From Ruegeria sp. 6PALISEP08 (lineage in GTDB: Bacteria; Pseudomonadota; Alphaproteobacteria; Rhodobacterales; Rhodobacteraceae), in the NCBI RefSeq assembly GCF_001238295.1, contig NZ_LGXZ01000005.1, forward strand, positions 124,001 through 188,000: a stretch of 64,000 nt of DNA, read 5' to 3'. The translations under genes and the position numbers were made by a program. This document shows, piece by piece, positions 37,616 through 48,008 of the stretch (its first letter is position 1; every line of letters begins with the position of its first letter). A model generated the notes under the pieces. It ran no database searches. It was not told the DNA's origin and was given only the letters and a program-made list of their open reading frames with translations.

Positions 37616-38914
37616 ATGACGAACGAAATGGAATTCTCTTTCAATTCACTGACGGATGCGGCGCGTCGGCATGTTCGGGTGTTTCAGATACAACAGTTTC
37701 TAGATCGCTTTGCTATGGGCCTCACAGTGGCGGTAGTTGCGCTGGCACTCACGGACCGAGGGATGGACCTCTTTGAGATATCCCTTCTCTTCGGGGTCTA
37801 CTCGCTGACCACAATGTCGATGGAGCTGCCGTTTGGTGGATTGGCCGACAACATTGGACGCAAGCCGGTGTTTATGGCAGCAGTGATCGCCAGCTTGATA
37901 TCGCTGGCGCTTTTCCTATCCTCGAGCGATTTTTTCGTCTTGGCTCTTTCTTTTGGCTTCATCGGGTTTGGGCGCGCACTTCGGTCGGGCACGCTCGATG
38001 CATGGTTTGTTGAAAAATTCAAAGTGGCCGCGCCAAATGTGGACATTCAACCCGCTCTCGCCAAAGCTCAATGGGCCAATGCTATGGGTCTAGCCATTGG
38101 GGCCGTCATTGGAGGTTTGTTGCCGGACGTTTTTGGTTCGGTGGCAGAGAGACTTGGATTTAGCATCTATGACGTGTCCTACGCGGCAAGCTTTTGTGTG
38201 ATGCTTGGGGTGTTCATTTACACCATGTTTGCCATTGTCGAAACATCTTCTCCAGTCAACACAAACGCGCTTAAACAGGGATTTTTACAAGTCCCATCGG
38301 TGATCAAAGACGCTGGCCTTCTAGCCTTAAGGCATCGTACACTTTCGATACTTTTGGCAGCGCTTGCGCTCTTCCTTATGGCGACCAATCCTGTTGAAAT
38401 AATCTGGCCGACCCACGCCAAGCCAATGTTAGCCGACGGATACGCCAACACTGTCATTGGCCTACTGACCGCAAGCTATTTCTTTTCTATCGCCTTTGGC
38501 GCGTCGCTTTCCCCACGCCTAAGTCGGATTTTCAAACGCCAGCATGCCGCCACGCTTGCAGCGACTTTCGCCTGCCTTACAGGTGTACAGATAGCATTGG
38601 CACTACAAGGCAGCATCATCGGTTTTGCGGTTGTATTCATCTTGTATTCTGTAATCCTTGGTGCAAATGAAACGCCCGCCAGCAGCATTCTGCATAGCTG
38701 CGTACAAGACCGCCAGCGGTCCACAATGCTGTCTCTAAGATCGTTGATCCAGCAAATGGGGGCAGCGCTGGGTCTGGTTTTCTCAGGAGCCATCGCTGAT
38801 ATGTACTCCACCCCGGTCGCGTGGATTGTCGGCACCGCTTTTCTTCTCATGGCGATGACTCTGAGCTTAGAGTTGGGTAAACGACTAGGCTCAGGGTTCA
38901 CGACCAGTAAATGA
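37616..38914 (+). CDS. Major facilitator superfamily transporter
   Basis: About 432 residues from the ATG at 37616 (a GTG at 37583 is also in frame) and about twelve membrane segments. MFS landmarks are the first cytoplasmic loop PFGGLADNIGRKPVF (the G-x3-D-x2-G-R-K motif) and the large central loop near 190-225. It exports or imports a small solute by proton coupling; the substrate is unknown. The last codons overlap the end of an IS5-type transposase remnant on the other strand, so its C-terminus (GFTTSK) may derive from, or have been trimmed by, that insertion. Confidence 0.85.
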   Translation: MTNEMEFSFNSLTDAARRHVRVFQIQQFLDRFAMGLTVAVVALALTDRGMDLFEISLLFGVYSLTTMSMELPFGGLADNIGRKPVFMAAVIASLISLALFLSSSDFFVLALSFGFIGFGRALRSGTLDAWFVEKFKVAAPNVDIQPALAKAQWANAMGLAIGAVIGGLLPDVFGSVAERLGFSIYDVSYAASFCVMLGVFIYTMFAIVETSSPVNTNALKQGFLQVPSVIKDAGLLALRHRTLSILLAALALFLMATNPVEIIWPTHAKPMLADGYANTVIGLLTASYFFSIAFGASLSPRLSRIFKRQHAATLAATFACLTGVQIALALQGSIIGFAVVFILYSVILGANETPASSILHSCVQDRQRSTMLSLRSLIQQMGAALGLVFSGAIADMYSTPVAWIVGTAFLLMAMTLSLELGKRLGSGFTTSK

Positions 38915-39105
38915 CAGTTGCCGTGCGTGAGATGGCTGATTGAAGGACCTTGGGACAAATGTCGTAGCGTGTCGCCATGCACCTCCAATCCTTGAGCCTG
39001 CCATAACTGATCTCAATGCGGTTGCGCCGCTTGTCTCGGCGATTGTCGTATTTGGCCGGGGTCTTGCGTTGCTTACGACTGGGGATGTAGGCGCTTATAG
39101 GTGCG
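38898..39105 (-). mobile_element. IS5-family transposase C-terminal remnant
   Basis: On the minus strand the codons read IPSRKQRKTPAKYDNRRDKR, then IEISYGRLKDWRCMATRYD and end AISRTATVIYWS, which is the conserved C-terminus of IS5-group DDE transposases, including the RNxIExxFxRLKDxR-type element with the third acidic catalytic residue. The stop is at 38898-38900. The rest of the transposase and the terminal repeats are missing. It lies about 130 bp outside the left end of the integrated element. Confidence 0.8.
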
Positions 39106-39238
39106 CTCAGGGCCGTTTGTTCAAAATTAAGGCTTGAAATAGCAGCAAATCAGACTGCCAGAGGCAACTTTAGGTGGCGGAACAGTAAGTGAATTGGTCA
39201 AAAGGCAAAATATCTCTGCATTAGACATCAGATTTTAT

Positions 39239-39291
39239 TGGTCGGAGTGAGAGGATTCGAACCTCCGACCCCTGCCTCCCGAAGACAGTGC
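39239..39291. repeat. Left attachment repeat (tRNA-Pro 3' remnant, 53 bp)
   Basis: Identical to 46707-46759. It runs from the tRNA CCA end through the T arm and the anticodon stem-loop to the edge of the D stem. Downstream of the 53 bp the sequence leaves the tRNA, so this copy is not a functional tRNA gene. Confidence 0.95.
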
Positions 39292-39410
39292 ACGGGCGGC
39301 TGTTTGTCCGACGCTGACATACACTGCACGTCTCCTGCACACACACTTCACTGCGCAAGAACGTCCATGTTGTCAGTGGGTTGAGTGTCGCATGCCGTAC
39401 CATGAAGTGC

Positions 39411-39465
39411 AACACGCGACGTGTTCAGCAGTGCACGTGTATGCACGGCAAACACACGATGTGTT
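39411..39465. repeat. Pair of 15-bp palindromes 40 bp apart
   Basis: AACACGCGACGTGTT at 39411-39425 and AACACACGATGTGTT at 39451-39465 share the pattern AACAC[G/A]CGA[C/T]GTGTT with compensating changes in both arms. Covariation of the arms argues for a protein-binding site rather than chance. Confidence 0.7.
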
Positions 39466-39484
39466 GTGCCAAACACGGTAGGAA

Positions 39485-39513
39485 GTGCAGCGCAGTGCAG
39501 CGGAAGTGCAGCG
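39485..39513 (+). repeat. GTGCAGCG tandem repeats, left arm-type site candidate
   Basis: Three copies of GTGCAGCG occur at 10-bp spacing. The 19-mer GTGCAGCGGAAGTGCAGCG at 39495-39513 recurs once, in the same orientation, at 46617-46635 near the other end of the element. Paired short repeats inside both ends are typical for integrase arm sites. Confidence 0.65.
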
Positions 39514-39652
39514 GAACATCAGGCACAGATGCGAAGGACATCGGCCAACAACGGCATCACTCCCCCGCCAACTTCCCAAAGCCGTGGAGGATGCAAGCGG
39601 TGCCGGTGGGAGGGATGTCGCACGCTCACCCCTCAGCGGCTGTTGATGCGTG

Positions 39653-40180
39653 TCAGTTCGGCAGTTGAACGAGCGCACAGCCACGTTCGCGCATCATGAT
39701 CTGAGCTTTGAAGCTCTGATCGTCGATCCACTTCTCCATCGTCTCTTGCGTCATCTGCTGTGGTGGAGGAACGGCCTCGTTCAAGTCATCTCTCACATCT
39801 TGATAACAACTGCTCCATGCACTTCCGACACGCAAGCCGACGCGGAACGCTTCATCCGTCTGGTTCGAGCTTTGTGGAGGCGGCAGGGTCACGGGAACGA
39901 TGAGGCAGTCGGGTAGTCCCCAAGGCTCGTTGATCGTGACCTGACCACGGAACAGCGCCGTCACAAGCTCACGGCCTGCGATGTTGAACACCTCGTCGAT
40001 GCGCTTCTGCTCGTCTGGGTCACCCGCCATGGTCGCGAGGCTGATGCACTGTTGAGCCTGACCAAGAACCGCAAGTAACTGATTTGCGCGCTCAACCGTA
40101 ATCGGTTGTTCCTGCGCAACCGATGCCGCCGATGACGTAAACACAAAGGCAACGGCAGCCGCGACGTTCTTAAAGTGCAT
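39653..40180 (-). CDS. Small exported protein of unknown family (element cargo)
   Basis: About 175 residues from the ATG at 40180, preceded by GGAG at good spacing; upstream in-frame codons are not needed. A signal peptide (about 1-23, ending SSAASVAQE) is followed by a mostly helical mature domain with single cysteines in QAQQCISL, LPDCLIV, SAWSSCYQ and RERGCAL, which could form two disulfides. I do not recognise the family. Its G+C and context match the element, so it is cargo. Its promoter region has a 15-bp palindrome. Confidence 0.7.
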   Translation of the reverse strand: MHFKNVAAAVAFVFTSSAASVAQEQPITVERANQLLAVLGQAQQCISLATMAGDPDEQKRIDEVFNIAGRELVTALFRGQVTINEPWGLPDCLIVPVTLPPPQSSNQTDEAFRVGLRVGSAWSSCYQDVRDDLNEAVPPPQQMTQETMEKWIDDQSFKAQIMMRERGCALVQLPN

Positions 40181-40565
40181 CTTCAACTCCACAACATCCC
40201 CTACACATAACGCCAGTGTGCCGCGCACACACATGATCTGCAACGTTCGCAGCCATGTTTGTCTCAACCAAAGACCCACTTTCACAGTCGATCAGTGGCG
40301 CGCTATCAACAGCAAACAGGGTGTGTGCATACCCTTGTTTCGTAAGCTCAAACCGGCACACGCGACAGCAGTGAAAGCTGCGACACTCTCTTTCGCCACT
40401 TTGAAAGTCCTGATCTGCGGTGAGTGGACAGCGAGGGCAGTGATTACAACCTCGCTTCAAGCCTCGCACTGCAACCATAGACCTTTGACCCACTTTGCAG
40501 GCTAGTGCAGTCTTCGACGCGATTGTTAAGCCAAGGTCCGTTCGAAACTAAGCACATGCCGCTAT
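40181..40565. other. Non-coding stretch between the exported-protein gene and HNH-HIT
   Basis: About 385 bp. It contains the promoter of the minus-strand exported protein and a GTGTGC-CGC-GCACAC palindrome at 40216-40230, similar in layout (6-3-6) to the left-end palindromes. No gene is supported. Confidence 0.5.
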
Positions 40566-41558
40566 TTAGTAGGCTTGGCGGCTGGGTATGACACCCCGCA
40601 CTCCACCGCGCGGCTCGGCAACGTCGCCTTCACGTCTCGGTATAAGATGAAAGTGAACGTGGAACACAGTCTGTCCCGCTGACGCGCCAGCGTTAACTCC
40701 GACGTTGAACCCAGACACAGACTGGTCCAGCGCGTTTATGTCGGCTTTGAGTTCACGCATCATGGCGTTCGCTGCGTTATGCTCAGGTTGGTGCAGGTCG
40801 AAGTAGTCCGCGACGTGGCGCTTAGGTATCACGAGCGTGTGCAAGTGCGTGACGGGGTAAGCGTCACGTATAGCAAAGCACAACTCGTTCTCAGCGATGA
40901 TGCGTTCCTGCTCAACGTTGCAGAAGATACAGTCCTCTATGCGTTCGTCGTAGCTTTTGAGGATACCTCGAAAGTCGGTGTCGTTTGTGTCGCGCTTGTT
41001 TGCGTTGCACGTGCTGCATAGCGCTTGAAAGTTGCTGATGTCGTCACTGCCACCTTTGTTGCGCGGTATGATGTGGTCAACTTGCAGTGCCGCTTGATGC
41101 TCGTGTGCACCGCACAACTCACATCGCATCTTTGCACGTGAGAGAACTTTGTACCTGACTGACCCGGGAACGTAGCCAGAAGTGTTTCGGCGATGGTCCC
41201 AGATAGCTGCACCGCGCTTGTCGATGTAAGTGCTGATCTTCTCATCGCATAGGGCGGAAAGCCTCTCGGCGTCTTCGGTTGTTAGGTTTTCAACCGCGAG
41301 CCTGTAACCGATAGTGCGCGCGCCTTTCTTAATAGGTTCGACGATACCGTTACTGGTCAACACTTTGCCGACCATCTGTTTCGTGCGGTCCTCGTAGTAC
41401 TCAACTTGCGACTGATCGTGAGACAGCAGCCCTTGCGCTATGTCACGCGTAGATGCCTGTCCACCACCTTGAAGCAACACCCGCAGCATAGCTGGTTGAT
41501 AGACCTGAGACATGCGCATCTTGTTGCGCAGATAGTCTTCGAGTTCAGCCGCCGTCAT
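40566..41558 (-). CDS. HNH nuclease - HIT hydrolase fusion protein
   Basis: 330 residues with GGAGGAAG before the ATG. The N-terminal part (about 15-90) looks like a winged helix. The HNH nuclease is at about 130-190: Cys146/Cys149, the catalytic LQVDHIIPRNKGG (Asp161, His162), Asn177, then C181-x2-C184 and NANK, the zinc-ribbon type. The HIT domain is at about 207-325, with CIFC (210, 213), HLH (238-240) and the catalytic HVHFHLIP (His300, 302, 304). HIT domains hydrolyse or transfer nucleotides; HNH domains cut nucleic acid. The fusion in an integrative element suggests a defence or toxin-like role, which is inference. Confidence 0.88.
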   Translation of the reverse strand: MTAAELEDYLRNKMRMSQVYQPAMLRVLLQGGGQASTRDIAQGLLSHDQSQVEYYEDRTKQMVGKVLTSNGIVEPIKKGARTIGYRLAVENLTTEDAERLSALCDEKISTYIDKRGAAIWDHRRNTSGYVPGSVRYKVLSRAKMRCELCGAHEHQAALQVDHIIPRNKGGSDDISNFQALCSTCNANKRDTNDTDFRGILKSYDERIEDCIFCNVEQERIIAENELCFAIRDAYPVTHLHTLVIPKRHVADYFDLHQPEHNAANAMMRELKADINALDQSVSGFNVGVNAGASAGQTVFHVHFHLIPRREGDVAEPRGGVRGVIPSRQAY

Positions 41559-41781
41559 ACTTCCTCCACCGATACACCAGACGCCTGATTATACGAACTG
41601 TTGCAACACTACGCCATGCGAAGGCGGAGTTTGCATGGCGCAGCGCAATAAGGTGATGAAGGTCGGAGAAGATGACAGGGCGCAAGCGCGAGGAGTTTGG
41701 TTTCCGGCAAGCGTTCCGCGCGCGCACTTCAGTTCTTGCAACATGTATGACAGTTTGCTTGGGTTACTTTTGGGGAAAAAC

Positions 41782-42285
41782 ATGCGTTTTACGTTGAGTA
41801 TGACAGCACTCTGTATCGCGGCTTTGTGGGTGCAACCCGCAACCGCAGAAGAAAGCAGCGAAGCACAGATGCAAGAGTTCGTCGACGAGATGCTTACTTG
41901 CTCAGCAGTATTGAAGATACTGTCAATCGCGCAGATGGATGTGCATCTTGCGCAAGACCCGATTGCAGGAACTGTACGTGAGAAGCTTGATCGGGCGGAA
42001 AAAAGCGGCAGGTACTTCCCAAAGGACAAGTATTTGAACAAAGGCAGGAAAGCCCAACAAGAAGCTGCAGTGGTGCGAGCGGAAACGGAAGACATCACCA
42101 GCAGTGTGGCCAGAGCGTTTACAGCGCGAGAAATCGAGCGGCGGGCGCAACGGCTTGGCATCGAAGGGGTCCGAGAAGCCGACTTTCACAACGATCCAAT
42201 CTTGGCAACGGCGCAGTACGAGGAGTTGCGACATCAACACGCTGAAACGATTGCAGAGTGCAACATCATGATCAACGCTTTGTAG
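41782..42285 (+). CDS. Small exported protein of unknown family (element cargo)
   Basis: 167 residues from the ATG at 41782 with GGGG at suitable spacing. The signal peptide is clear (about 1-22, cleavage after ATA). The mature part is highly helical and charged, with cysteines only in LTCSAV and AECNIM, and an ALA/GLU-rich middle. No family recognised. It converges with, and overlaps by 14 bp, the winged-helix gene on the other strand. With the other exported protein it frames the HNH-HIT gene. Confidence 0.65.
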   Translation: MRFTLSMTALCIAALWVQPATAEESSEAQMQEFVDEMLTCSAVLKILSIAQMDVHLAQDPIAGTVREKLDRAEKSGRYFPKDKYLNKGRKAQQEAAVVRAETEDITSSVARAFTAREIERRAQRLGIEGVREADFHNDPILATAQYEELRHQHAETIAECNIMINAL

Positions 42286-42718
42286 TTGGCATGCGTCTAC
42301 CACCTGATGCGATTTCAAACACGATGCAACTGCTGTTGCCGCTGCTCGAATTTACGGCTCGCCGTAGCTGATGGCCGATCACTGAGAACATCGGGTGCAG
42401 AACCATCGCACTCTGTTTCGTTCGTCGCAGCAAACCGGAACTGATCAACTCGTTCACGCCTCGGCGCGCTGACCACTCAGGCACGCCTGCTTCGTCTGCC
42501 GCTGCTCGCAGTATCGGGCTGTTGTCGCTGACGTGCTCTTCGCACGACACCCACCGTATTATCGCCATCAGCATCGCCTGCGCGTGTCGCGACAAGCCGT
42601 GGAAAGCGCGCAGTGCCGCTGAGTTCGACAGTTCGACTTGCACATCAGGAACGTTCAGCGCTTGGGAAACTTGGTTGCGCGTGTCCATGCTGCTGCGTGG
42701 GAGCGACTTCTCGTTCAT
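42272..42718 (-). CDS. Winged-helix protein, RepL-like
   Basis: 148 residues. The centre (about 35-110) reads as a winged helix: LSRHAQAMLMAIIRWV, then SPILRAAADEAGVPEWSARRGVNELISSGLLRRT, then a beta-wing with VLHPMFSVIGH. The layout resembles plasmid replication proteins of the RepL type and small replication or copy-control regulators. Its start overlaps the stop of the upstream replication-type gene (TGATG), so they are coupled. It could initiate or regulate element replication; the family call is tentative. Confidence 0.6.
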   Translation of the reverse strand: MNEKSLPRSSMDTRNQVSQALNVPDVQVELSNSAALRAFHGLSRHAQAMLMAIIRWVSCEEHVSDNSPILRAAADEAGVPEWSARRGVNELISSGLLRRTKQSAMVLHPMFSVIGHQLRRAVNSSSGNSSCIVFEIASGGRRMPTTKR

Positions 42719-44016
42719 CAGTATGCTCCCATCTTGACCGCATCATGCACTGGACCATCTGCCGGTGCGTCGAACACACTGCCGAGAGCATCGACTTTCT
42801 GTGCGTCGTTGATGTCCGCACGACCGAGAACGCGTCGTGCCTCAGCCAAGAGTGCTTGCTGCCTGTCAACGTTTGCTTGCATCTTGTCGATCACGGATAC
42901 CATCGCTTCGATGCGTGCGTCCTTTGTCGCGATCTGCTCGGCGTGTATCTGTTCCTGAACTTCAAACAACTCCGACTGTCGCGCCAACTGCTTGCCGCGT
43001 TCACCAGCCAGTTTGCGCCAGGCAGCTTTGCTCTCGTCACGTTTCTTGTTCTTGGGTTTGCTCTCGCCCGTTGCCTTCACATCATCGCGTGTGACGGTCT
43101 CGGTTCTGGCTTTGCCGTTTGGTGCGGCGCGTGCCAGAACGGGTTTTGTGCTCGGGTAAGCCTGCGCCATCACCAGATGGTTCAGCAACGCGCCTTGCGT
43201 GCCTTGTGTCTCGGTCAAAACCAACAAGCGCGCGGCAGCAAAGTCTTCGATGATCTGCTCAAACTCGTGCTCTCTGATCTGCGTCACGTCCGAAACCAAC
43301 CGTCGCAGACGCTCGTAGTCATACGTTCTGTCATCATCGAAAGATGTGTCGAGATGCTTGCCGCGTTCACGCATGGTGTTGAGAAGCACGTCGGCATCTC
43401 GGTCGTTCAACATCGGCTCAAACTTGGACCATGAAAGGTCAGCGATGTGAGTGCATGACGTGGGTATGCGATACCAGCACTGGTCTTGCCGCAAAGGACC
43501 GTGCTCTTGTTCAGCGATCACTTCCCCTGTTGTCTCTGCAAGTCGCGCAAGCGGTATGACCTCGCTCTGACGAAGCGGTCTCGCGGCTCGCATCAGCGCT
43601 CGCAACACGCGCCCATGTCTGGCTGGCAGATGGTCTTGTAACGTGTCCACCACTTCATCGACGAAGCGTGTCTCGCTGATCGGTTGGCCGCTGATGTTGG
43701 GAACAAGTAGCACGTTGCCCGTTCGATCTCGCTGTAACTTACCGTTCGCGGCGCGCTTCGGAACAGGAAGCAAACCGCGCACAAGGTAGTGGCCCGATAC
43801 TTCCTGCAGTACCGTGCTGATATCCTCGGAGAACACAACCACGTTGCTGCATGCCATGTCTTCCTGTGCATGCAGCTTCGTTTCTACGTCATCGGCTTGT
43901 GCCCAGTTGCCCAGTTCTTCTTCTTTGGGCAACTGGGCACAGGAAGATGCGCTTTGCATGCACTGTTCTGAAGCTCGCTTTTTCGGGCTTTTCCGGTTTG
44001 GTTTGTTGGTTTTCAC
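42718..44016 (-). CDS. Probable replication-associated protein, family not recognised
   Basis: About 432 residues from a GTG at 44016 with GGAGG ten bases upstream; an open frame continues to 44214 but would overlap the primase gene by 100 bp. The N-terminus is very basic (KTNKPNRKSPKKR). The middle (about 60-310) is helical with RHGRVLRALMRAARPLRQSEVIPLARLA, which resembles a helix-turn-helix. The C-terminus (about 330-420) is a charged coiled coil (KAAWRKLAGERGKQLARQSEL, QANVDRQQALLAEARR). Context between a primase and a RepL-like protein points to replication. A perfect 16-bp inverted repeat lies in its 5' end. Confidence 0.6.
   Translation of the reverse strand: MKTNKPNRKSPKKRASEQCMQSASSCAQLPKEEELGNWAQADDVETKLHAQEDMACSNVVVFSEDISTVLQEVSGHYLVRGLLPVPKRAANGKLQRDRTGNVLLVPNISGQPISETRFVDEVVDTLQDHLPARHGRVLRALMRAARPLRQSEVIPLARLAETTGEVIAEQEHGPLRQDQCWYRIPTSCTHIADLSWSKFEPMLNDRDADVLLNTMRERGKHLDTSFDDDRTYDYERLRRLVSDVTQIREHEFEQIIEDFAAARLLVLTETQGTQGALLNHLVMAQAYPSTKPVLARAAPNGKARTETVTRDDVKATGESKPKNKKRDESKAAWRKLAGERGKQLARQSELFEVQEQIHAEQIATKDARIEAMVSVIDKMQANVDRQQALLAEARRVLGRADINDAQKVDALGSVFDAPADGPVHDAVKMGAY
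43898..43941. repeat. Perfect 16-bp inverted repeat inside the replication-type gene
   Basis: Arm TGTGCCCAGTTGCCCA (43898-43913) pairs fully with TGGGCAACTGGGCACA (43926-43941) around a 12-nt loop. Each arm holds two copies of TGCCCAG. It lies about 75 nt after the chosen start of the gene. Such a strong hairpin inside a replication gene is a good origin or primase-recognition candidate. Confidence 0.85.
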
Positions 44017-44113
44017 AGCTTGCTTGCCTCCTTTTTCGTCCACTGTCTCCGGTTGGCTGGTCTCTGGGTTCGCCCTGCCATCACCGCCTTGGTGCTCGCT
44101 CGTCAGTCTCTCG

Positions 44114-45037
44114 TCACGGCTTCGCCGTGGCTGGCGCTGTCTTTGCAGCTGAGTTGATATACTGAAGTGAGCCTTGCACCGTTCGTTCCACGTAGCGGAT
44201 ACCAGCACCTTCACGGCTCGTTTCGCGTTCCCGTGCTTTCTCAGATGTCGCCATCAACAGCACTTCGACTTGTTCGGGCGCTGATCCGTTTGTGAGTAAG
44301 AACGTTGCGACATGTGCGTCAGCCCTGCTTCGGTTTCCACCAAACTTCGCTGTCGCTTCGTCGATCATCGCCTTCACGATGCTGACTTCGCTTTCGGTGC
44401 TGCCCAACTGTGGCTTGCGTTCGCCGTGGGTGTCGGTGTGCTCGACGCGTACGCTTTGAACGGACAAAGCCCGCTCTTGCGCATCATGAGTGAGGCCTTT
44501 GTTGAAGCGCAAGCGGGGTACGTGATCCCGACTATGATGCACCAACACGAGCGGTGGCTTTCCATCTGGCAGCATGCGTTCTGGCTTCGGGTTGCGCGTT
44601 GTTGGCACTCTGCCGTGTTGCGTTGGTTTGGCGCTGCTGGGATCACCTGCGTACTGCTCGGCCAAGACACGGCAAGCCGCAGCGTGCACATCAGTTGAGT
44701 GGTTGCGACCGGACAGCGTGACCCATGCTTGGAAGTTGTCAGGGCTGGTTTCTACAACTGCGCTTGGCCTGATGCCGTCGCACGCCATCAGGTGCAGTGC
44801 ATCGGCGCTGATGTCGTCAACGAGCACGTGCGTCAGAGGTCCATCGGGGCGGAAGAACACGTGGTGCCGCGCGGCCGACATCGCTGCAAACCAGTCTGCA
44901 GATGCGATGAACTGATGTGGTGTAAACCGACGACAAGCCACGACTTTGCCGCCAAGAGAGATGATACGTATGTCGAACGTCTCGCAGGGCAGTGCATCAA
45001 CCAGTTTGTGAAGCCAGATGCGACGTCGATCAGTCAT
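44114..45037 (-). CDS. RepB-type primase (archaeo-eukaryotic primase fold)
   Basis: 307 residues. Primase-like segments are HHVFFRPDGPLTHVLVDDISADAL (Asp74, Asp75 as metal ligands) and IRPSAVVETSPDNFQAWVTLSG, the typical beta-strand element seen in RepB primase domains. The second half has GDPSSAKPTQHGRVPTTRNPKP, also usual. It synthesises primers for replication of the element. Its start overlaps the HTH gene upstream by 8 bp, so it follows it in one operon. No linked helicase domain is present in this protein. Confidence 0.8.
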   Translation of the reverse strand: MTDRRRIWLHKLVDALPCETFDIRIISLGGKVVACRRFTPHQFIASADWFAAMSAARHHVFFRPDGPLTHVLVDDISADALHLMACDGIRPSAVVETSPDNFQAWVTLSGRNHSTDVHAAACRVLAEQYAGDPSSAKPTQHGRVPTTRNPKPERMLPDGKPPLVLVHHSRDHVPRLRFNKGLTHDAQERALSVQSVRVEHTDTHGERKPQLGSTESEVSIVKAMIDEATAKFGGNRSRADAHVATFLLTNGSAPEQVEVLLMATSEKARERETSREGAGIRYVERTVQGSLQYINSAAKTAPATAKP

Positions 45038-45506
45038 CTCTGTCTCCTTGGTTCGCGGTGGGCACAGGGCCGTCTTCCTGTGCGGTCTTGGACCCAGACC
45101 CCTCGGCGAAGCGAAGCGCCGCCCCTGTCATCTGATGACTTTCAAGGCACTTTGCCTGATCTCGGGTAGCCGATCGGGTCTCACAGCCATCGCTCGGACG
45201 CCGCAGTGCCCTCAGCCAGGCATCGACCTCACACTGGTCGAACTGCACTCGACCTCGAAGCCGATACCAAGGAGGACAAGCGGTTGTGTCGCCGTTCCGA
45301 TGGTCCATCATCATGCGGCTCAGAGTTCGGAGTGAGACCCCGATGTGATCTGCGGTTTCTTGCTTGCTGAGCGGTGGCAAGTTGGCGGCTCCGATGTCTG
45401 GTGATCTGGTGCCGCCTGCGCAACGCCACTCCGACAGAGTGATGACACGTTGCGGTCTTTGGTCAGGACTTCTGGGACAGTTTCCCAGTATGTCCGAAGG
45501 TGGCAC
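45030..45506 (-). CDS. Excisionase-like helix-turn-helix protein (HTH_17/AlpA type)
   Basis: Up to 158 residues, from a GTG at 45506 (start uncertain). The core (about 45-105) reads LPPLSKQETADHIGVSLRTLSRM followed by a wing WYRLRGRVQFDQCEVDAWLRALRR, a MerR-like DNA-binding unit common in excisionases and AlpA regulators. The C-terminal 50 residues are polar and low in structure. It is first in the operon with the primase and replication genes, and next to the integrase. It probably controls excision and the replication genes. Nested inverted repeats lie just upstream (45540-45584). Confidence 0.75.
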   Translation of the reverse strand: MPPSDILGNCPRSPDQRPQRVITLSEWRCAGGTRSPDIGAANLPPLSKQETADHIGVSLRTLSRMMMDHRNGDTTACPPWYRLRGRVQFDQCEVDAWLRALRRPSDGCETRSATRDQAKCLESHQMTGAALRFAEGSGSKTAQEDGPVPTANQGDRDD

Positions 45507-45539
45507 GAACTGGCCCAGAGGTCAAGCCCAAAAGTACCA

Positions 45540-45584
45540 CATGTTGTGTTCATAGCGCTATCATGCGCTGCATAACACAACATG
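45540..45584. promoter_or_regulatory. Nested inverted repeat in front of the HTH-primase-rep operon
   Basis: Outer arms CATGTTGTGTT (45540-45550) and AACACAACATG (45574-45584) are perfect. An inner AGCGC-N6-GCGCT palindrome lies between them. The position, 34 bp upstream of the HTH gene start, fits an operator for that protein or a switch controlling excision. Confidence 0.7.
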
Positions 45585-45608
45585 CAGTGTATGTACTCGC
45601 GCTACATG

Positions 45609-46562
45609 TCACTCAACAGCATGCAACTTGGCGACGATGTCCGACGCTCGCAGCCTTGCGTATCTTTCAAGAAGCACGCCCGCGTCACGATGCCCAGTAA
45701 GTACTTGCACTTCGGCCACTGACCACCCTTCCAGCAGCTTGTCTGTTGCGGCTTGCGCGCGTAAGTCATGCAGCCTGATGTCTTCGACACCGGCACGCGC
45801 ACGCAGCCTCTGCCATGCCAGTCGCACGGCGTTCTCAGTGATGGGCAACACTCGGTCATCAGCGCGCGGCAACGTGGTCAACACCTGAACAGCCATCGGG
45901 CTGAGCGGCACGAACCGCGCATGTCCGTTCTTGGTCATCGACAGCAACACGACCCGTTGTTGCAGGTCAACGTCACACCATTGCATGGACAGCAGTTCGC
46001 CTCGTCGGCAAGCCGTCTCACGTGCCAAAACGATCAGAGGTAGCATCAACGCGTTCTTGCACTGCACTGCCGCATCAAGCAGCCGCTGCCACTCATCGCC
46101 TGTCAGCCGTCTTTCGCGACGGTCACTGATACGTGGACGCCTCACGTGGCGCACTGGGTTGGCATCGCTGTCGTCAAGCTGATGGTCGATGGCTGTCTGC
46201 ATCAACGACAACTCACGCACCACAGTGGATGGCTTGGCTTCTTGTACACGTCGGTCGCGCCACGCTGCGACTTCGGCAGCAGTGAGCACGTCGATGCGCA
46301 AAGTTGCCAACTTCGTGCGAGCAAGCGCGTGCAGTCGCCATCGCTCGCTTGGTTTCTTGTCTGCCAACTGGTGCAGAGCGTCTGAAAGTGTAGCAGTCGT
46401 CGTCTTGGGCTTGCACAACTCGCCACGTTCTGCGCGCATCTCCGCATCGCGTGCCCACATCACTGCATCGGCTCGCTTCGTGAACGTCTTGCTTGTTGAC
46501 CGGCCTGCACGTCGCACCGTCGCCTGCCACTTGCCACTTGGCCGCTTGTTGATCGTCGCCAT
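45609..46562 (-). CDS. int: Tyrosine recombinase / integrase
   Basis: 317 residues with the usual domains: an N-terminal arm-binding part (about 1-60, AP2-like), a SAM-like core-binding domain (about 60-135), and a catalytic domain. Catalytic residues can be read: Arg186 in ACRRGELL, Lys211, His265 and Arg268 in LHDLRAQ, His291 in LTGHRD, and Tyr301 in LLERYARL. It catalyses site-specific recombination between the tRNA-Pro site and the element's own copy. It lies next to the intact tRNA end and is transcribed away from it. Confidence 0.95.
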   Translation of the reverse strand: MATINKRPSGKWQATVRRAGRSTSKTFTKRADAVMWARDAEMRAERGELCKPKTTTATLSDALHQLADKKPSERWRLHALARTKLATLRIDVLTAAEVAAWRDRRVQEAKPSTVVRELSLMQTAIDHQLDDSDANPVRHVRRPRISDRRERRLTGDEWQRLLDAAVQCKNALMLPLIVLARETACRRGELLSMQWCDVDLQQRVVLLSMTKNGHARFVPLSPMAVQVLTTLPRADDRVLPITENAVRLAWQRLRARAGVEDIRLHDLRAQAATDKLLEGWSVAEVQVLTGHRDAGVLLERYARLRASDIVAKLHAVE

Positions 46563-46616
46563 CTCGCATCTCTCCTCGTGCGATGATGGACGTCTTGCGC
46601 CGTGTTTGCGTGCTTG

Positions 46617-46635
46617 GTGCAGCGGAAGTGCAGCG
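46617..46635 (+). repeat. GTGCAGCG repeat, right arm-type site candidate
   Basis: The 19-mer GTGCAGCGGAAGTGCAGCG is identical to 39495-39513 and in the same orientation. It lies between the integrase start and the tRNA attachment repeat, about 70 bp inside the element end. Confidence 0.65.
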
Positions 46636-46706
46636 ATCAGACAACCGACACGGTGCCGGTGCGTGCAACTGCATCCAGATGTGTCAACAACATCAAGCAG
46701 TTGATC

Positions 46707-46783
46707 TGGTCGGAGTGAGAGGATTCGAACCTCCGACCCCTGCCTCCCGAAGACAGTGCTCTACCAGGCTGAGCTACACTCCG
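46707..46783 (-). tRNA. tRNA-Pro (anticodon CGG)
   Basis: The 77-nt cloverleaf is complete: acceptor CGGAGTG/CACTCCG, D stem GCTC/GAGC, anticodon stem CTGTC/GGCAG with loop TTCGGGA (anticodon CGG), T stem GGAGG/CCTCT with loop TTCGAAT, and encoded CCA. The 3' 53 bases form the right attachment repeat of the integrated element, so the element regenerated an intact gene on insertion. Confidence 0.96.
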
Positions 46784-46892
46784 ACCGTGGCGGGTGATCT
46801 ATACCCGGTGTTCTGGATGCGCAAGAGGATTCTGAGGCGTGATTGTGGAGGCTTATACACGGCAATGGATAAGATCGTAATGCTGTCAGTTG

Positions 46893-48008
46893 TCAACGAA
46901 GCGGATCCGTTTTGTACAGGCGAATCTTTGTGCCGCCGTGATCTACCACCGGGCCGGGTTGGAGCAACGGAAGGCGAGTGGCCCGTGCCAATGCGGGTGC
47001 GCTGGTCACTATTCCAACGCGCCATCCCTGAAAACGGCCGGTCAAAACCTTACCCAGAGTGCCATAGACAGAGCGCAACCGCTTTTCGTCTCCTATGCGT
47101 GCCCCATAAGGCGGGTTCACAATAACCAAACCGGCAGGACCTTCTGGTGGCTTAATGTCGCTGACCGAACGCTGCAGAAAACGCGTCATCGCGCCAACCC
47201 CGGCCCGCTCGGCATTGGCTGTGGCGGCGCCCACTGCACCTGAGTTTCTGTCCGATCCGTGGAATGTCAGAGAGCATTCCTGCGCGGTGTTGCTTTCGCG
47301 CATCTTTTGCCACTGGTCGTGATCGAATTCGGCCAGGTTTTCGAACGCAAAGCGACGTGAGCGGCCCGGCATCAACCCAAGTGCAATTTCGGCGGCTTCT
47401 AACACAAACGTACCTGATCCGCACATCGGGTCGAGCACAGGCTCGTCCCCTGTAAACTCGCACTCTCGCAAGAACATGGCAGCCATTGTTTCACGCATCG
47501 GGGCCTTGGCAATTGCTTCCTTGTGACCGCGCTTGTGCAAAAGCTCACCTGAACTGTCGATCGACAGTGTGCAGATATCTTTTTCAATGCGCAGCAAGAC
47601 CCTTAGGTCTGCCTCGGGCGAGATCGGTGCCCCCAAAACCTCGGAAATGGCGCGTTCGATCCGCTGCCGGGCTGCACCCGCATGGTAGATTCTGGACTTG
47701 CGGCTGGTGGCCTCGACCTTCACCGGAACGTCGGTGCGTAAAAAATCACCCCACGGAAACTTGCGCGCACGCTTGTCCAATTGAGCCAGATGCACGGCCG
47801 GAAAGCTGCCCAGGCGTACAAGAACCTTGTTTGCCCCGCGCAATGTCAGATTCGCACGCCAAACTTCGGACCAGGATCCTCGGCACGTTACACCACCTCG
47901 AACAGCTTTTGCTTCGGCAAAACCGCAGGATTGTGCCTCGGCACATAGTGGATTTTCGAGGCCCGGTGTGGCGATCAGAAAGATATCGAGGTCTGCGTTT
48001 TTTTCCAT
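46893..48008 (-). CDS. THUMP-domain class I SAM-dependent RNA methyltransferase (RlmL/TrmN6-like)
   Basis: 371 residues. The N-terminal THUMP RNA-binding region is about 45-155. The methyltransferase part has DPMCGSGTFVLEAAEIALG (SAM-binding loop) and VIVNPPYGARIG (NPPY, N-methylation of a base). The family makes m2G in 23S rRNA (RlmL N-terminal half) or tRNA. Its length equals a single-module enzyme, not the fused RlmKL of gamma-proteobacteria. It lies beyond the right end of the element, outside it. Confidence 0.9.
   Translation of the reverse strand: MEKNADLDIFLIATPGLENPLCAEAQSCGFAEAKAVRGGVTCRGSWSEVWRANLTLRGANKVLVRLGSFPAVHLAQLDKRARKFPWGDFLRTDVPVKVEATSRKSRIYHAGAARQRIERAISEVLGAPISPEADLRVLLRIEKDICTLSIDSSGELLHKRGHKEAIAKAPMRETMAAMFLRECEFTGDEPVLDPMCGSGTFVLEAAEIALGLMPGRSRRFAFENLAEFDHDQWQKMRESNTAQECSLTFHGSDRNSGAVGAATANAERAGVGAMTRFLQRSVSDIKPPEGPAGLVIVNPPYGARIGDEKRLRSVYGTLGKVLTGRFQGWRVGIVTSAPALARATRLPLLQPGPVVDHGGTKIRLYKTDPLR

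Follow-up and report, generated by a model that had tools for sequence, protein, structure and literature searches.

What kind of element is a 7.5-kb stretch of DNA that sits in a tRNA gene and carries its own primase, and how might it move? This question is raised by a locus in the chromosome of Ruegeria sp. 6PALISEP08 (contig NZ_LGXZ01000005.1), which was analysed within a window of 64,000 nucleotides (positions 124,001 to 188,000 of the contig; the positions below are those of the window). The initial annotation had taken it for an integrated element at tRNA-Pro that looks complete and has a primase of its own, and the repeats, the tRNA gene, the integrase and the primase all support that description. 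Judged from its sequence, the stretch is a real, intact-looking mobile element in a tRNA-Pro gene, and its primase is of the plasmid type.

The element is bounded by copies of the 3′ part of a tRNA-Pro gene

The ends of the element are given by two exact 53-bp direct repeats, the starts of which are 7468 bp apart, so that a 7,468-bp element lies between them:

39239..39291, no strand: distal att repeat, a copy of the tRNA-Pro 3′ part; exact 53-bp repeat, at which homology with the empty-site congeners ends
46707..46759, no strand: proximal att repeat, within the intact tRNA-Pro gene; exact 53-bp repeat
46707..46783, minus strand: tRNA-Pro(CGG), the target gene, intact (ARAGORN; Rfam)

The repeat equals the 3′-terminal 53 nt of tRNA-Pro(CGG), which is the only tRNA gene that ARAGORN finds in the window; Rfam was concordant on the stretch scanned (38900-47000). 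The exact repeats and the intact tRNA-Pro at one end, both pointed out in the initial annotation, were thus recovered. The G+C content is 0.567 inside the element and 0.564 outside. The tetranucleotide distance between the element and the rest of the window was 0.377, against 0.090-0.231 for other segments of the same length (n = 83), a contrast that is somewhat flattered, because these segments overlap one another and are mostly part of the reference.

All 54 genomes of the genus that were searched match some part of the region, and from among the matches listed we picked six loci in which the flanks apparently meet (L040-L045; loci are numbered with L) and seven in which the tRNA region is split. 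All six candidate empty sites give one continuous alignment, which runs from one flank through a single core into the other. Of the seven split sites, L028 is the only one in which tblastn detected an integrase close to that of the window; L039 gave a weak match (27%). The tRNA-Pro gene is therefore also used by unrelated islands. These other islands, of about 12 to 42 kb and with no close integrase relative, split the region in six congeners (L029, L030, L031/L032, L033/L034, L035-L037 and L038/L039). With repeats equal to the 3′ part of the tRNA, a complete integrase and empty sites elsewhere, the window element is by its features a tRNA-targeting tyrosine-integrase element, and the data support integration in the 3′ part of the tRNA gene with restoration of the whole tRNA.

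Integrase, HTH protein and putative arm-type sites

The recombination module lies next to the tRNA gene, with one further candidate site near the distal end:

45609..46562, minus strand: tyrosine integrase, 317 aa, catalytic set complete (PF00589, E 1.8e-24; phrog_1, E 1.3e-48)
45030..45506, minus strand: AlpA/excisionase-like HTH protein (phrog_66, "excisionase and transcriptional regulator", E 5.9e-8)
45540..45584, no strand: perfect 11-bp inverted repeat with a 23-bp spacer, candidate operator upstream of the HTH gene
46617..46636, minus strand: putative integrase arm-type site (tandem), int side, upstream of int, 1 mismatch
39495..39514, minus strand: putative integrase arm-type site (tandem), distal side, 0 mismatches

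Residues R186, K211, H265, R268, H291 and Y301 of the integrase, the roles of which we take to be catalytic, are all present and are invariant in the sister element described below; this six-residue set and the two family matches bear out the annotation of a catalytically complete tyrosine integrase. The excisionase-like HTH protein, also annotated at first, stood in part: the phrog_66 match argues for it, but the Pfam HTH_17 match (E 0.023) stays under its cutoff. In three relatives (L056, L169 and L175) a regulator of the AlpA type (PF05930/PF12728) scores above the cutoff.

With up to 4 mismatches allowed, the window has exactly two copies of the tandem 20-bp site CCGCTGCACTTCCGCTGCAC, one close to either end of the element, and we read them as arm-type sites to which the integrase would bind. 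Of 15 roseobacter loci with a related integrase (L056-L070), 13 have the same site, with no more than 3 mismatches, in the 100 bp that precede int; one half is kept in L068, and in L060 it is absent from the 110 bp held by the contig. A distal repeat was found in seven relatives (L058, L061, L062, L063, L065, L068 and L169), and in six of them, the other being L063, a second arm-type site (up to 4 mismatches) starts 179-197 bp before that repeat; the distance between distal site and distal repeat in the window is 223 bp. L175 carries a single arm-type site with 5 mismatches, and its available sequence shows no distal repeat.

A plasmid-type primase

Further genes of the same strand follow the HTH gene, the first of which is the primase:

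44114..45037, minus strand: RepB-type DNA primase, 307 aa (PF16793 RepB_primase, E 3.2e-20; phmmer to chain 3h20, E 2.3e-22)

Residues 9-289 of this protein align with the solved chain 3h20, "Replication protein B", which is presumably the RSF1010 protein, and its D74, D75 and D132 correspond to positions 77, 78 and 134 of the chain, which we take to be catalytic. Both matches confirm that the element has a primase of its own. The genome draws used for the distribution counts overlap, and each includes the window genome. As a single sequence the primase was found in 1 of 292 genomes drawn from the order, and none of its 48 pattern matches in genome contigs was confirmed; with a two-row profile it was found in 8 of 394 genomes drawn from the family, seven of the matches being weak (E 1e-7 to 4e-5). 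These seven were not counted as members, and the two of their loci that were read (L177 and L178) have another integrase and a RepA-like ATPase. In the latter, integrase-bearing loci (L177, 6688-10968; L178, 6791-11076), unlike in the window element, RepB_primase is paired with a RepA-like AAA_25 ATPase.

A sister element in Ruegeria atlantica

The initial annotation had asked for a related element at tRNA-Pro in another genome, and such an element exists in R. atlantica CECT 4292 (NZ_CYPU01000024.1; L028/L065), at tRNA-Pro(CGG), with 55-bp repeats 8051 bp apart (8.05 kb). The sister shares the integrase (73.5% identity), the primase (41.6%) and a winged-helix homologue (25%, E 7.5e-4), the order int - primase - large protein - winged helix, and arm-type sites near both ends; at the left end short parts are conserved between the two elements. 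It differs in that an HNH-HTH gene takes the place of the HTH gene, a 362-aa protein, homology of which is not established, occupies the slot of the 498-aa protein of the window, and the cargo is unrelated. The identities at the three codon positions were 0.78/0.87/0.46 for the integrase and 0.52/0.66/0.32 for the primase, which indicates constraint on both genes; synonymous estimates were saturated.

These comparisons bear on the view that the stretch is a decayed, immobile prophage remnant. Virion genes are indeed absent from it, and among the relatives the integrase is truncated in L068, L069 and L070 and partial in L168 and L170. However, the repeats are perfect, integrase and primase are complete, arm-type sites are present near both ends, and the sister has a similar size and order with other cargo, all of which makes a remnant very improbable.

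Related integrases occupy several tRNA genes in roseobacters

A pattern scan of genome contigs with the integrase gave 55 loci, namely the 15 roseobacter loci mentioned above (L056-L070, in Ruegeria, Shimia, Roseovarius and Roseobacter; the integrase match is partial in L066-L070) and 40 actinobacterial ones (22-28% identity). Genome searches added L166, L168, L169, L170 and L175. The integrase was detected in 10 of 54 genomes of the genus at E 1e-40 and in 10 of 390 from the order at E 1e-60. ARAGORN placed a tRNA directly before the integrase in 13 of the 15 roseobacter loci (Val(TAC) in 10, Arg(CCT) in 2, Pro(CGG) in 1), and found none in L059 and L060; in L059 a tRNA-Val 3′ end can be recognised by eye. 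With the added loci, the integrase family of roseobacters is found at tRNA-Pro, tRNA-Val(TAC), tRNA-Val(CAC) and tRNA-Arg.

A tree of 17 integrases, including two Streptomyces outgroups, grouped the two complete tRNA-Pro integrases (100/100), the two tRNA-Val(CAC) ones (100/100) and, in one group with L060, the tRNA-Val(TAC) ones (98/98). Deeper branches were not settled, and the partial tRNA-Pro integrase of L170 falls outside the tRNA-Pro pair. In this tree, then, integrase clade and target tRNA correspond for Pro and Val(CAC).

The genes that accompany the integrase vary. In five tRNA-Val(TAC) elements (L058, L061, L062, L063 and L166) the gene of a 511-aa protein (phrog_2467, E 8.2e-30) precedes that of a 159-aa HNH protein, and L060 has the latter protein and a portion of the former. 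The Shimia locus L056, at tRNA-Arg, has AlpA (PF12728, E 1.6e-7) and DUF5906 (E 1.2e-19), both above the cutoff and oriented opposite to int; no distal repeat was found there. L169 and L175, from two other genera and at tRNA-Val(CAC), carry the integrase, an HTH_17 regulator (E 1.7e-9 and 1.1e-11), an HNH protein and a protein of 348 or 394 aa, together with a winged helix that shares 34% identity with the one in the window; no primase was found in either locus, although L169 has a transposase open reading frame (ORF) and L175 starts at a contig end. Replication modules differ among relatives that share the integrase family. The cargo of two tRNA-Val elements includes what look like defence or regulatory pairs, with CHAT and HARE-HTH in L062 (13978-16595) and an ImmA-type peptidase with an HTH regulator in L061 (14809-15752); amidohydrolase-like genes were recognised by eye in L056 and L058.

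We consider it a tentative, rather doubtful idea that roseobacters have a minimalist phage satellite family of their own, in which one integrase lineage with conserved arm sites would have moved between at least four tRNA genes, the replication modules would be swapped (RepB primase; DUF5906 with AlpA; the phage-type 511-aa protein; a winged helix without a recognised primase), and plasmid and satellite parts would be interchangeable. Among the titles and abstract openings listed by searches of an open-access library, no description of the element or of its mosaic roseobacter family was found.

The large protein and the winged-helix protein

Two genes lie between the primase and the cargo:

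42718..44214, minus strand: protein of up to 498 aa, with a helical C-terminal stretch read as coiled coil
42272..42718, minus strand: 148-aa winged-helix-like protein with homologues in three other elements (model pLDDT 63)

The 498-aa ORF overlaps the primase gene, so that the true start is probably further downstream. The model of the protein, of poor quality (pLDDT 42), has a long helix at 393-463. The counterpart of this protein in relatives is positional only. Homology with the 362-, 348- and 394-aa proteins of the same slot was not supported: BLASTP gave nothing better than E 0.2, and against a profile built from these three the window protein reached -0.8 bits, with at least 9 of 1000 block-shuffled copies scoring higher. 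The protein was found in 1 of 292 genomes drawn from the order, which is the window genome itself.

The 148-aa protein matches its counterparts in L169 (34%, E 1e-14), L175 (34%, E 4e-13) and L028 (see above), and was found in 4 of 394 genomes drawn from the family, three of the matches being strong; a weak match in genome G235 (E 2.6e-4) was not counted as a member. The label "RepL-like" that it had initially received was not upheld: Pfam, PHROGs and PADLOC yielded nothing for it at E 1, and its only NCBIfam match carries no meaning. Its AlphaFold model, of moderate quality and built from a two-row alignment, gave no Foldseek match at E 0.001 or better; the top rows were Rio2 kinases, followed by several winged-helix regulators. 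Rio2 kinases have an N-terminal winged helix.

How the element might replicate and move

The eight proteins of the element were compared with Pfam, PHROGs, PADLOC and NCBIfam, and no conjugation, mating-pair, relaxase or capsid family was matched, in agreement with the first impression that no conjugation or virion genes are visible. PHROGs named "terminase small subunit" matched shared domains only: phrog_4581 fell on the HNH domain of HNH-HIT (E 5.1e-8), whereas the match of phrog_57 (E 0.012) was to the HTH protein. Family searches gave no match in the element to a RepA-like helicase/ATPase or to the IncQ RepC initiator, a diverged initiator being possible, and no iteron-like arrays were seen in it besides the arm-site repeat.

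In our best reading, the element carries out its own integration and excision, supplies the primase for its replication and depends on a helper for movement. In its favour we count the exact repeats at the tRNA gene, the six empty sites, the sister element, the arm-type sites here and in relatives, the integrase clades that match their target tRNA, the RepB-type primase and the constraint on integrase and primase. The sequence supports recombination by the integrase within the 53-bp core, leaving a whole tRNA; the AlpA-like protein would act as excisionase and switch, working with the integrase in excision. Once the element is excised, an origin may be marked by the winged-helix protein together with its coiled-coil neighbour, and the RepB-type primase would prime there; since none was recognised in the element, helicase and polymerase would be supplied by the host or the helper. 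The DNA could then be packaged by an infecting phage, as in the islands discussed below, with the HNH-HIT and secreted proteins as cargo, perhaps anti-phage. Integration and excision by the 53-bp core route are almost certain, and helper-dependent transfer of some kind is very likely; a phage is as probable a helper as not, and the whole chain, phage packaging included, falls a little short of an even chance.

Phage-inducible chromosomal minimalist islands (PICMI) of Vibrionaceae offer the closest comparison. As described in PMC10803314, the type island has 6,110 bp and consists of an integrase, a small regulator and a primase between flanking repeats, with accessory genes at the far end; the group is defined by the integrase, AlpA and DUF5906 gene set together with fis. 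Excision requires alpA, int and iolg, full replication requires the island's primase, and the island, which encodes no capsid remodelling, is packaged by a virulent phage (PMC10803314). The window element is likewise small, with an integrase, a small putative regulator and a primase, flanking repeats, accessory genes at the far end and no recognised capsid-remodelling genes. It differs in its target, which is tRNA-Pro and not fis, in its primase, which is of the RepB type (PF16793) and not DUF3987/DUF5906 (the latter being present only in the Shimia relative), and in its roseobacter host. The small size, the lack of matched relaxase and mating genes and the Shimia relative of the integrase with AlpA and DUF5906 speak for a satellite; the layout and this relative point towards minimalist satellites, the primase itself being plasmid-type.

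Phage-inducible chromosomal islands (PICI), capsid-forming ones (cfPICI) and P4-like satellites carry capsid, capsid-redirecting or terminase genes. In the window element no capsid family was matched and the terminase labels fell on HNH and HTH domains, although redirecting proteins could be missed by such searches. An integrative mobilisable element with its own relaxase (iMOB) would have a relaxase, and no such family was matched either. Tycheposons and VEIMEs consist of a recombinase and cargo, often at tRNA genes. They are among the marine integrative elements mentioned in PMC11389934, and the likeness is by description only, in that the window element is a marine integrated element with a recombinase and cargo. 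By the features tested, the window element is no PICMI, no relaxase-bearing mobilisable element and no complete IncQ replicon, and it has no PICI or P4 hallmark; it may work as a minimalist satellite or as a mobilisable element.

The second of these possibilities would be an integrative mobilisable element that lacks a relaxase (iOriT), or else an IncQ-like plasmid that has become integrated. After excision it would be moved, by way of an unrecognised oriT, by the conjugation machinery of a resident plasmid or integrative and conjugative element, and in the recipient its primase would make the complementary strand. This primase is a member of the plasmid RepB family, is homologous to RepB′ of RSF1010/IncQ (PDB 3h20 and 3h25) over residues 9-289, and is paired with a RepA-like AAA_25 ATPase in L177 and L178, from the same bacterial family. 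The IncQ gene set includes the RepA helicase, the RepC initiator and oriV iterons. The window primase, by contrast, lies in an integrated element in which no relaxase, RepA-like ATPase or IncQ initiator family was matched and no iterons or mobilisation gene was recognised, so that only the RepB-type primase of that set was recognised. We kept this explanation, which we regard as unlikely, because oriT sequences are hard to identify, as stated in PMC11389934.

Spread by a non-specific route is a further alternative, in which generalised transduction, natural transformation or the gene transfer agents of Rhodobacterales would carry the DNA, and its own integrase would only re-integrate it. That no transfer gene of any kind was recognised, and that the cargo of some relatives looks metabolic, agrees with such a route; however, a dedicated primase suggests a replicating extrachromosomal stage, and 7.5 kb exceeds the roughly 4 kb held by gene transfer agent particles. 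We consider this alternative improbable.

Several observations weigh against a self-priming element packaged by a helper phage. The HTH_17 match of the putative excisionase is below the cutoff, and the sister primase (L028, 5567-6526) has a leucine at the position of D75, the second of the three presumed catalytic residues. Members of the primase family are common in plasmids (344 records), and the phage matches are four Xanthomonas records only, all partial. The element is rare, with the primase in 2 of 54 genomes of the genus. Pattern-based scans of viral contigs gave no relatives of the primase, the 498-aa protein, the 148-aa protein or HNH-HIT; with the integrase they gave 34 loci, of which one is close (L111, 50%) and is probably the L059 locus, because the upstream sequences are identical. 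Finally, no packaging gene, cos/pac site, helper phage or excised form is in evidence.

If a phage is the helper, minimalist satellites would extend to a major group of marine bacteria, and a plasmid-type primase would serve one of them. Whatever the helper, the element is a compact test case of 7.5 kb and about eight genes, with defined ends, a sister and empty-site strains, which bears on the minimal gene load of an integrative element and on how integrases change their tRNA target alongside the exchange of replication modules.

Cargo genes and neighbouring sequences

The far end of the element holds three genes that we regard as cargo:

41785..42285, plus strand: 166-aa protein (ORF) with a signal-peptide-like start (by eye), no convincing family
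40566..41558, minus strand: HNH + HIT fusion, 330 aa (PF01230, E 5.4e-22; PF01844, E 2.8e-14)
39653..40180, minus strand: 175-aa protein with a signal-peptide-like start (by eye), from an inner ATG of a 210-aa ORF, no convincing family

The two secreted-looking proteins had no match in plasmids. In PADLOC the HNH-HIT protein gave domain-level matches only (ThsC, E 2.9e-10; REase_II, E 1.1e-6; PtuB, E 1.2e-5), and for this reason it is kept as perhaps anti-phage. Relatives of HNH-HIT exist outside the element, one on contig C14 of the same genome (60% over 285 aa; L046, 1134-1988) and one in a congener (62% over 331 aa; L047, 3547-4539), in surroundings that look unrelated. A stretch of about 215 bp at 38885-39098, adjoining the left flank of the element, has many copies in congeners (72-84% identity) and one further copy in the same genome (C22), and is probably an insertion-sequence remnant.

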